Shown piece after piece: positions 11,731-13,668 of a DNA stretch of 64,000 nucleotides. The number at the start of each line of letters is the position of its first letter. Positions within the stretch are counted from its first letter, which is position 1. The notes under the pieces were generated by a model. The model worked only from the letters and a program-made list of their open reading frames with translations, was not told the DNA's origin and made no database searches. The stretch is taken from the NCBI RefSeq assembly GCF_021513255.1, contig NZ_CP090977.1, positions 1,798,001 through 1,862,000 on the forward strand, given 5' to 3'. The stretch is from Planococcus sp. 107-1. Lineage in GTDB: Bacteria; Bacillota; Bacilli; Bacillales_A; Planococcaceae. The translations under genes were made by a program, and so were the position numbers.

Positions 11731-11856
11731 AAAAAAGCGTTCGTAAAAGTACACTTTTACGAACGCTTTAAAAATGCTTGAAAACGACTAAAAAAACGTT
11801 CGTAAACGTGTCAAAACACATTACGAACGTTCAGTTTGTGAAACATACGTTTACGG
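11731..11856. repeat. nested palindromes built on TTCGTAAA units; includes terminator
   Basis: Positions 11734-11769 form a perfect inverted repeat of two 17-bp arms (AAAGCGTTCGTAAAAGT and its complement) around 2 bp. On the minus strand it is followed by T6, so it can end transcription of the vWA gene. A second, imperfect inverted repeat with the same CGTTCGTAA/TTACGAACG core spans about 11794-11832, and a third half-unit (ACGTTTACGGA) lies near 11848-11857. The core unit occurs four times in 100 bp. Confidence 0.8.
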
Positions 11857-11872
11857 ACAATTTACCTTGAAT

Positions 11873-12523
11873 TTACTGTCTGCTGCGCTTGCTAAAGTCA
11901 GCTTCGATATCCTTCTTCCAGTTCTGATCCAGTTTTCTTCCTTGCCGGAATGAACTGACGGTTTCATTCAATACGCGGTAATTCAGTTCTGTCCCTTTAT
12001 CATCCGCGTGGTAATTTACAGCCCGGTCTTCACTGATTCCGAAGTTTTTGGCGGTCGCGACTGCGTCGATGTTGGCACCGAGGAAGATAAATTCCCAGCC
12101 GAACTTTTCTTTTTGAAAAGAAAGCATTTTTCTTATTTTTGCGTAGTCGTATTCACAGCTGGCATTTTCCATGCCGTCTGTCGTGATCACAAACATGACT
12201 TTTTCCGCTTGTTCTTCCTGGCTTGTCCGTTTTTGAACATTCACCAGCTTTTGGATGGCTGAACCGACAGCATCCAGTAAAGCGGTCGTGCCGCCGACTT
12301 CAAACTCTTTTTCCGTTAATGGGGCGATCCCCGAGATTGCAATGCGGTCATGCAGCAACTCATACTGGTGGTTAAAGAGAATGGTGGTTATTTTTGCGTC
12401 TCCCGCTTCTTTTTTCTGCTTTTCAATTAAAGCATTAAAGCCCCCAATTGTGTCTTTTTCAAGCCCTGCCATTGAACCGCTTTTATCGAGAATAAAAACG
12501 ATTTCCGTACTTCCTTTTTTCAT
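11873..12523 (-). CDS. von Willebrand factor A domain protein (TerY-like)
   Basis: This cytoplasmic vWA protein of 216 residues has an intact MIDAS metal site (DKSGSM near residue 14, a conserved Thr in GGTTALLD, and TTDGMENA as the third loop). There is no signal peptide or membrane segment. The ATG at 12523 has AGGAGG eight bases upstream; an upstream in-frame ATG has none. It lies directly downstream of a macro-domain gene on the same strand (about 90 bp apart, with a small hairpin between), and the pair probably acts together. vWA proteins of this kind appear in Ter-type stress modules, but no ter gene is in this window. Function unknown. Confidence 0.82.
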   Translation of the reverse strand: MKKGSTEIVFILDKSGSMAGLEKDTIGGFNALIEKQKKEAGDAKITTILFNHQYELLHDRIAISGIAPLTEKEFEVGGTTALLDAVGSAIQKLVNVQKRTSQEEQAEKVMFVITTDGMENASCEYDYAKIRKMLSFQKEKFGWEFIFLGANIDAVATAKNFGISEDRAVNYHADDKGTELNYRVLNETVSSFRQGRKLDQNWKKDIEADFSKRSRQ

Positions 12524-12596
12524 ATCGGTCTCCTCCTTAGTCTGCCTGTTCTTCACAGGTGATACCTAAAGAGTAACCTTTACCGGAAATCGTTTG

Positions 12597-12613
12597 GTCG
12601 CTTTTGAAGCGAC
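12597..12613. other. small hairpin between macro and vWA genes
   Basis: GTCGCTT and AAGCGAC form a 7-bp stem around 3 bp, immediately after the macro gene stop. No T-run follows, so it is more likely an mRNA processing or attenuating hairpin than a full terminator. Confidence 0.4.
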
Positions 12614-12615
12614 AA

Positions 12616-13614
12616 TTATGCACCAAGCAAAGGCTGGTCAAAGGCAAATAAAGCTTCGTTGATTTCATGGATGTTGTATATTTTTTGGATTATGAAATAT
12701 TCAATGATGACGTCCAATTTATGGCTATGGGACAAAGCGTACCCGGCCGTTCCTAATAGTTCTGCAGTTTCCTCGAGGTCCAGTTCTAAGGCAATAGCAA
12801 ATGCAAAAACGGTTTTCTTAAGCGGTGTATACCCTGGCGAGTTTCGGATCTTTGAAAATAATCGCCGATCGATATTGGCTTTTTTATAAGCTTGTGCATC
12901 CGTCATTCCTTTTTCGTCAATGAATTGAAGAAGTTTGTCCGAAAAATTTTCTTTTATTCGGCTTAGGGCCTCTTCTAATCCCTCAACTGTTTGATGGACA
13001 GCAGTAGACCGTTCTTCGGTTGAGTAGGATACTTCTTCTAAAACACGGCGGCTTCGAGCGTATTTTAGCTGCTGGTGTTCTACGTAATTTTCGTCGATGT
13101 AATTGCGGATCGATTGAGACAGTTTTCCGCTGAAACCGAACGATGCTTGATCAAAGACGACAAGAAAAACGAGTATTTCATGGTCCGGCTTCATTAAGAA
13201 ACGATGGATTTCCGAAATGGCGACTTGCAGAGCCTGTTCTTTTGGGTAGCCGTAGATGCCGGAAGAAATTAACGGAAAAGCGATCGATTCACAATTTAAG
13301 GAATGGGCAAGTTCCAGCGAATTTGCGTAGCAAGACCGGAGATGGCCTTCTTCATTTTCCTTTCCTCCGTGCCAGATTGGCCCCACTGTATGGATGATGT
13401 AATTGGCATGCAAGTCGAAGGCCTCTGTACTGACAGCTTCACCGACCGGGCAATAGCCGATTTCGTTGCAGGCTTTTTGCAACTGGGCAGCCCCAGCAGC
13501 ATTAAATATCGTACCGCACACGCCGCCGCCCATTCGAAGTTCTCTATTGGCCGCATTGACAATGGCATCTACATGCATTTTTGTGATGTCATTTCTCACA
13601 ATTTCTAAAGGCAT
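12616..13614 (-). CDS. macro domain protein with C-terminal helical regulatory-like domain
   Basis: 332 residues in two parts. Residues 1-165 are a macro domain (ADP-ribose binding, often ADP-ribosyl or O-acetyl-ADP-ribose hydrolase), with NAANREL, the GGGVCGTIF loop and SSGIYGYP. After a charged linker, residues about 220-332 form an all-helical domain (FSDKLLQFIDEKGM... to ALFAFDQPLLG) that resembles a Cro/XRE-type fold and is found at the C-terminus of many Bacillota macro proteins; its role is not known to me. It is followed by a vWA gene. A role in reversing ADP-ribosylation under stress or in defence is inference from the macro domain only. Confidence 0.85.
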   Translation of the reverse strand: MPLEIVRNDITKMHVDAIVNAANRELRMGGGVCGTIFNAAGAAQLQKACNEIGYCPVGEAVSTEAFDLHANYIIHTVGPIWHGGKENEEGHLRSCYANSLELAHSLNCESIAFPLISSGIYGYPKEQALQVAISEIHRFLMKPDHEILVFLVVFDQASFGFSGKLSQSIRNYIDENYVEHQQLKYARSRRVLEEVSYSTEERSTAVHQTVEGLEEALSRIKENFSDKLLQFIDEKGMTDAQAYKKANIDRRLFSKIRNSPGYTPLKKTVFAFAIALELDLEETAELLGTAGYALSHSHKLDVIIEYFIIQKIYNIHEINEALFAFDQPLLGA

Positions 13615-13668
13615 CTTCTCGTCCCCCTTTCTTCTATTATAGTATCCACTTGCAATGGCCGTAAAAGT

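Follow-up and report, generated by a model that had tools for sequence, protein, structure and literature searches.

A macro domain–helix-turn-helix protein looks like the regulator of its neighbouring vWA gene in Bacillota and phages

In Planococcus sp. 107-1 a macro domain fused to a helical C-terminal domain (CTD) is encoded just before a vWA protein, and this pair looks primarily like a regulator together with its target gene, because the CTD resembles a DNA-binding activator with its own operator before the vWA gene. We consider it likely that the vWA gene is switched on by the macro-CTD protein, a one-component activator that would bind the operator through its helix-turn-helix (HTH), act as a class II activator and use its macro domain as sensor. 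Our computational analysis shows the pairing, the operator, a fixed promoter geometry, sites before ADP-ribosylglycohydrolase (ARH, PF03747) genes and a covariation of recognition helix and operator. Activation instead of repression can reasonably be inferred from these data, while ADP-ribose or a derivative as the signal through the macro domain is a weaker proposal, because CTDs lacking a macro domain use the same operator.

Results

The gene pair lies in a stretch of 64,000 nucleotides that was analysed as a whole (the window). An earlier note, made from the sequence alone, had placed a vWA gene directly after a macro gene. Both minus-strand reading frames were found as claimed (macro gene 13614..12616, vWA gene after it) and the order stands, while the vWA start had to be corrected: ATG 12523 is likelier than GTG 12556, because the Shine-Dalgarno sequence AAGGAGGAG (12530-12538) sits 6 nt upstream of it. 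What that reading had missed are the palindrome between the genes, the replacement of the MacroD Asp and His by Cys33 and Phe37, and the DNA-binding-activator look of the CTD. All features are collected in Table 1; sigma-A-like matches such as the one listed before the macro-CTD gene occur in this region at chance frequency. The four flanking genes of the window match glycosyltransferase, SBF transporter, Na_Ca_ex and cation efflux families in Pfam.

Table 1. Features of the macro-CTD/vWA gene pair in window coordinates.
Feature	Position	Strand	Remarks
Possible sigma-A promoter of macro-CTD gene, TTTACG-18-TATAAT	13636..13665	minus	promoter scan
Macro-CTD gene	12616..13614	minus	332 aa; macro domain fused to predicted Cro/C1-type HTH domain
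Macro domain, residues 1-165	13120..13614	minus	N20, N23 and GGG loop kept; Cys33/Phe37
HTH core of CTD, residues 224-290	12745..12945	minus	AlphaFold2; SinR, 434 Cro and P22 c2 matches; conserved columns
Recognition helix DRRLFSKIR, from residue 249, within HTH core		minus	
Two extra C-terminal helices, residues 299-324	12643..12720	minus	AlphaFold2
Operator TGTCGCTTCAAAAGCGACC	12596-12614	minus	just 3' of macro-CTD stop codon
-10 box TACTCT of vWA promoter	12570..12575	minus	conserved distance from operator; position read from sequence
Hairpin 5-prime arm CTCTTTAG	12566..12573	minus	wholly upstream of predicted start
Predicted vWA transcription start, A after T, conserved YR	12563	minus	profile; inferred
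Hairpin 3-prime arm CTAAGGAG	12533..12540	minus	includes part of vWA Shine-Dalgarno
vWA gene	11873..12523	minus	phrog_7371-like, MIDAS present; proposed regulator target

As judged from its predicted structure, the CTD is a Cro/C1-type HTH followed by two helices. In the AlphaFold2 model of the whole protein (pLDDT 85.8) the macro domain is followed by a long helix, with a disordered linker, and then by a compact helical domain; the last 123 residues modelled alone reach pLDDT 93.6, in agreement with the separate XRE-like helical domain that had been read into the C-terminal ~110 residues. This model matches DNA-bound SinR (Z 10.2, 63 residues, 1.7 A), 434 Cro (Z 9.5) and P22 c2 (Z 8.6), mainly over residues 10-84 of the 123; the top row, 9a7f (Z 10.9), is an integrative model, and matches of the full-length model fall mostly on the macro domain. 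The last two helices are spanned by one of 50 match rows (7p4a, Z 8.4, rmsd 4.6 A) and have no clear structural partner among these 50, which does not in itself make them a new fold. The macro-CTD protein thus shares with SinR, 434 Cro and P22 c2 the five-helix HTH and a palindromic operator, and differs from them in the two C-terminal helices, the macro fusion and the vWA target. Residues after 165 of the window protein have no Pfam match of their own above the cut-off; HTH_26 (cut-off 22) recognizes one relative (L007, 23.0), falls just short in another (L133, 21.3) and gives no match to the window protein, whose HTH is not basic (pI 6.4, charge -0.2). Asp249 was also considered as a MIDAS ligand, an idea that was dropped because the recognition helix begins with this residue, which changes along with the operator.

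The N-terminal part is a macro domain by profile (Pfam Macro on residues 19-132, E 1.2e-41) and by predicted fold. The model matches E. coli YmdB (5cb3, Z 28.5, 164 residues, 1.6 A) and O. iheyensis MacroD (OiMacroD, Z 26.1), with which it shares the Asn and the GGG loop, and this fold points to an ADP-ribose pocket of the MacroD type. The catalytic Asp and nearby His of helix alpha1 are absent in the window protein, which has Cys33 and Phe37 instead; these correspond to D40 and H44 of OiMacroD with an offset of seven, as do N23 to N30 and G30 to G37, and the fold match agrees (OiMacroD numbering from PMC5413906). In 121 distinct fused proteins the two positions read Asp/His 66 times, Cys/Phe 49 times, Ser/Phe four times, and Gly/Ala and Asp/Tyr once each, and neither Asp/Phe nor Cys/His occurs among them. 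The active site therefore comes in two coupled types, Asp/His and Cys/Phe, and the latter is a deeply conserved variant. When the Asp/His columns were removed, a quick tree of 108 full-length proteins explained the two-state label with 2 changes, while a tree of the CTD alone requires 5. Because OiMacroD D40A retains ~14 percent of kcat/Km (331 vs 2412, PMC5413906), the Cys/Phe macro domain may, by analogy, still hydrolyse weakly. The window genome has only this one Macro gene.

The intact MIDAS that had been reported for the vWA protein is indeed there: DKSGS...T...D can be read in the sequence, and the pattern DxSxS...T...D falls on conserved columns. The protein matches phrog_7371 clearly (E 8.7e-54) and the Pfam vWA profile weakly (E 0.0015, 19.2 bits, cut-off 23.8).

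We then turn to the pairing. In a CTD scan of genome contigs the best 80 of 594 matching stretches were kept; among these the CTD is fused to a macro domain in 76, and a vWA gene follows downstream on the same strand in 66, 58 of them within 400 nt. It stands on the other strand in one and was not seen in 13, eight of which end within 2.4 kb. Ten of 11 viral CTD loci likewise have the vWA gene downstream on the same strand, and phages, plasmids and viral contigs also carry the module. An even sample of 398 Bacillota genomes contained the CTD in 65, the vWA gene in 53 and both in 48 (Fisher 1.6e-41, not corrected for phylogeny), in line with the similar pairs in other Bacillota that the earlier note mentioned: 48 of 53 vWA genomes also have the CTD. 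Counted over 61 of 62 vWA rows and 89 of 90 CTD rows, with short fragments left out, 47 of the 61 vWA places have a CTD no more than 2.5 kb away (39 of these vWA genes downstream on the same strand, 8 divergent), and 42 of the 89 CTD places have no vWA gene within this distance; some of the latter are macro-less CTD proteins beside other genes. From this data we conclude that the macro-CTD/vWA pairing is strongly conserved, beyond chance. The gene-neighbourhood survey of the CTD suggested earlier thus removes the objection that the two genes might fail to co-occur elsewhere. All 12 same-genus genomes among the matches listed, our own included, have the full-length fused gene, and within the genus the pair is kept while its flanks vary between species (L273, L277, L278). 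At family level 47 of 121 genomes match, some by the macro or CTD part alone.

A palindrome, TGTCGCYTnnnARGCGACC, is common to divergent CTD/vWA pairs of distant genomes and lies in the window between the two genes. We scored GTCGCYT-N3-ARGCGAC upstream of 200 distinct vWA genes, over at most 180 nt each, and found it with at most three mismatches in 148 (73 exact matches; one mismatch in 65, two in 7, three in 3; the other 52 were worse), always with a spacer of 3; 30 of 1000 shuffles reached this threshold, and the upstream regions of 120 macro-CTD genes gave none. The operator precedes 144 of 151 vWA genes in CTD-bearing loci vs 4 of 49 in loci without the CTD. The seven failures comprise three loci with altered half-sites (L170, L171, L101), one site further upstream (L252), an apparent half-site at the edge of the stretch (L023), a second vWA gene (L097) and one upstream region with no operator visible (L045). 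Among the four CTD-less exceptions, L224 comes from genome G246, where a CTD is encoded elsewhere, and L177 is truncated by the end of its contig. TGTCGCTTCAAAAGCGACC is the only exact operator match in the window genome; at up to two mismatches there are five matches, two of which are this site on either strand, vs six in the reversed control. The 19-bp pattern alone is noisy already at one mismatch (65 rows vs 21 in the reversed control, 50 genomes).

We also searched the 398 genomes for a composite pattern of operator, N20 and TAnnnT with at most one mismatch. It occurs in 50 of them, namely in 48 of 65 CTD-positive and 2 of 333 CTD-negative genomes, and its reversed form in 7. The pattern was partly derived from loci of the same genomes and is not independent of the discovery set, so that the CTD-negative genomes are the real control. 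Within 150 nt before a vWA gene lie 44 of 62 composite sites, in 43 genomes of 26 family codes.

The bases downstream of the operator keep a fixed arrangement. In 146 distinct sequences aligned on the operator centre, T, A and T stand at +30, +31 and +35 in 98 percent each, and pyrimidine and purine at +41 and +42 in 97 percent each. Taking these as the -10 box and the start puts the operator centre at -42 and leaves no -35 box: the right half-site fills its place, with ACC at +7 to +9 in 100 percent of the sequences, followed by A/T-rich bases unlike TTGACA. An operator at -42 over a missing -35 box is the arrangement of class II activator-dependent promoters and resembles lambda CI at OR2/PRM. 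The standard promoter scan did not list the vWA promoter, as expected from the missing -35 box.

Additionally, the promoter can pair with the ribosome-binding site that it precedes. In the window CUCUUUAG pairs with CUAAGGAG, including one G-U. The promoter stretch from -20 to -1 pairs with the vWA Shine-Dalgarno region with a mean of -10.5 kcal/mol (n 143), compared with -6.8 kcal/mol for mismatched pairs (lowest of 100 permutations -7.2) and -6.3 kcal/mol for the stretch 5-prime of the operator. In the predicted folds the read-through RNA (97 nt, -28.8) hides the Shine-Dalgarno sequence, and the RNA from the predicted start (64 nt, -8.8) exposes it. Because the -10 region can pair in this way, we propose that the vWA gene is off in the read-through RNA.

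Regarding the targets, the 170 distinct sites over the loci examined stand before vWA genes (144), ARH genes (7), macro-less CTD genes (2), and other genes or nothing (17, several at contig ends). The "other" sites include those before an HD_4 protein directly after the macro-CTD gene (L104/L227) and a PcfJ/Sel1 protein of 698 aa (L286). In genome G246 an ARH gene with a site is on a different contig from the CTD and vWA genes; it was considered as proof of action in trans and set aside, since CTD and vWA lie near contig ends and only the ARH gene is clearly apart. Genome G151 (L215) has a vWA gene overlapping an ARH gene together with the operator, and no CTD match at E<=1. Several macro-less CTDs (L141, L143, L144, L151, L229, L267-L271) have a vWA gene and the same operator, and the macro domain is therefore not needed for the circuit. 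An operator-first scan of viral sequences returned 45 stretches with 47 sites, 10 beside the module; the remaining sites look like chance, given the large collection and loose pattern.

The recognition helix and the operator vary together. Out of 150 distinct CTD-vWA pairs, 131 combine Asp at the position of window residue 249 with GTCGC in both half-sites. Four pairs have the half-site GTCAA, and each of them has an SxQ helix: in L101 GTCAA fills both halves, in L168 one, and L170 and L171 read GTCCA/GTCAA. As the last two are near relatives, the covariation amounts to three lineages only. L083 (S249, K251) and L173 (G249) keep GTCGC; the half-site switch therefore tracks Gln251 no less than Ser249. 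Co-occurrence and covariation tie the palindrome to the protein, as expected for a Cro/C1-type regulator, and on this comparative evidence the CTD very probably binds the operator.

The ADP-ribosylation link that the earlier note had drawn from the macro domain is strengthened apart from that domain, by unrelated ARH neighbours (L177, E 2.3e-32; L139, E 1.7e-78; L289, E 1.2e-39) and a WGR-PARP gene directly before a vWA relative in Xanthomonas phage XacN1 (L156 3684-5615). ARH genes lie between macro-CTD and vWA (L006, L059, L093, L096, L112), adjoin the pair (L073, L077, L097, L101, L138, L170), stand beside a vWA gene with no CTD in the stretch (L177, L215) or flank a macro-less CTD (L139). 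By similarity to two ARH proteins, 24 stretches have an ARH reading frame no more than 1 kb from a CTD or vWA frame, some places being counted twice. A Pfam tally with 25 of 137 families listed has 7 ARH among 130 chosen neighbours, which is not an unbiased rate because the gene between macro-CTD and vWA in L059, missed by the simple gene caller, was added by hand. Among the matches listed, vWA relatives without a CTD share no neighbour except ARH (L177, L215) and PARP (XacN1). At E<=0.01 neither ARH nor SIR2 was found in the window genome, which is 94 percent complete.

Discussion

Taken together, we propose the following circuit. A Cro/C1-type HTH dimer would bind the palindrome just 3' of its own gene. 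As the operator sits at -42, with a -10 box, a YR start and no -35 box, the bound macro-CTD protein is proposed to recruit RNA polymerase at the vWA promoter in the class II manner. The macro domain would be the likely sensor, with the HTH switching when ADP-ribose or a derivative binds; the target set would comprise the vWA gene, plus ARH where present, and the read-through RNA may keep vWA silent until its own promoter fires. Its purpose could be to clear ADP-ribosylation or free ADP-ribose, arising from phage or host, or to cope with either. Several observations count against this circuit: the macro-less CTDs with an identical operator, the CTD-less genome G151 with operator and targets, the non-basic HTH of the window protein, the many CTD places with no vWA gene close by, and the lack of ARH and SIR2 in the window genome.

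Two other readings concern the palindrome itself. The HTH protein might be a vWA repressor that occupies the -35 position and leaves the DNA once ADP-ribose binds to the macro domain; the operator does overlap this position, and negative regulators of the Nudix-HTH and WYL-HTH kind are proposed for ARG systems (Iyer et al. 2022, PMC9503650). A repressed promoter should, however, retain its -35 box, which the ACC and A/T-rich bases of all 146 sequences do not resemble, and we regard repression as unlikely. Far less probable still is an RNA-based explanation, with the palindrome as a structured element or attenuator of the vWA leader and the HTH acting elsewhere. The element is palindromic and the stretch downstream of it pairs with the Shine-Dalgarno region above chance, yet its arms GTCGC/GCGAC are nearly invariant, arm variants in L168 and L275 are not matched by a change in the other arm, and -10 box and YR start keep a fixed distance from an element that divergent genes have in common.

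Other readings concern what the module does. A plain pair of ADP-ribosyl eraser (macro) and MIDAS chaperone (vWA), with regulation as incidental, would fit the Asp/His pair kept in 66 of 121 fused proteins, the entry of ARH, another eraser, into the module and the peptide-binding chaperone role given to vWA in the ARG study (Iyer et al. 2022, PMC9503650). Cys33/Phe37 of the window protein and the occurrence of CTD and operator without any macro domain speak against it, and we find this account doubtful. We are about equally sceptical of a role in antiphage defence. Plasmids and viral contigs do carry the module, and in phage PV036457 it stands between ResIII/N6_N4_Mtase and HsdM matches, yet PADLOC models gave 0 families at E<=1, and the gene in all 12 same-genus genomes listed makes it unlike a patchy defence island. 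A toxin-antitoxin reading was rejected, as no transferase is found among the four flanking genes of the window and in the neighbourhoods inspected the only possible writers nearby are the XacN1 PARP and the L222 SIR2.

Coming back to the macro-CTD protein as activator, the closest known relatives are the ARG-centred systems, which are predicted to undo viral ADP-ribosylation (Iyer et al. 2022, PMC9503650). They are reported from actinobacteria, planctomycetes and proteobacteria, and over 42 percent contain a Nudix-HTH or WYL-HTH regulator. As here, they combine ARH, vWA and sometimes Macro with a proposed ADP-ribose-sensing HTH and no coupled transferase, and HD phosphatases related to alarmone enzymes are also listed as a common feature (PMC9503650). 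Compared with these systems, our module has a macro-HTH regulator, is found mostly in Bacillota, has a core of CTD and vWA with ARH optional, and comes with an operator identified. The window copy lacks two ARG-system features, with no ARG gene in its genome (E<=0.01) and no Nudix-HTH or WYL-HTH regulator. By analogy, the module looks like a Bacillota counterpart of the ARG-centred systems with another regulator. The NrtR-type Nudix-HTH proteins cited there likewise join an HTH to an ADP-ribose-sensing domain; the macro sensor is unrelated, and its sensing putative. DarTG and sirtuin-macro pairs, cited in the same study, also place a macro domain in a small operon, and unlike DarTG the four flanking genes of the window hold no ADP-ribosyltransferase toxin, though L222 does have a SIR2-macro pair beside the module.

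A search of freely available journal papers brought up no description of a macro-HTH regulator, such a pair or the operator. What is new here is the sensor-regulator combination, macro plus HTH, in an ADP-ribose-processing neighbourhood, and it suggests an undescribed bacterial route for sensing and answering ADP-ribose stress. We see even chances that macro-HTH proteins form a widespread, undescribed group of ADP-ribose-sensing activators in Bacillota and phages, with a regulon of vWA, ARH and once an HD hydrolase, one operator in at least 26 families, and Asp/His members that hydrolyse next to Cys/Phe members that purely sense. Many bacterial macro domains are without a known purpose, and the operator, start and targets make the sensing question testable with reporters. 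Should the signal be ADP-ribose or a relative, the system would be a ready-made biosensor and vWA the candidate effector of the ADP-ribose response.

Finally, several minor observations deserve mention. At 11734-11850 of the window, 3' of the vWA gene, two strong inverted repeats with ACGAACG (around AAAGCGTTCGTAAAAGTACACTTTTACGAACGCTTT) look terminator-like by eye and are absent from the terminator scan list. L219, L220 and L221 encode vWA paralogs with an apparent signal peptide, and their stretches are free of ARH, macro and CTD genes. In L222 (8928-10186) two copies of the macro-CTD module are accompanied by a SIR2 sirtuin (PF02146, E 8.4e-53) and a standalone macro gene, and in phage PV036457 (L002 5326-8205) macro-CTD, vWA and a weak HD_4 match are flanked by restriction genes, type III-like on one side and type I-like on the other. 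Standalone macro genes of the Cys/Phe variant, without a CTD, are found in L261 (2726-3226) and L262 (3067-3567). The operator stands before a macro-less CTD gene in L136 and directly before the ~700-aa PcfJ/Sel1 gene in L286, and genomes such as these two contain up to seven CTD matches.
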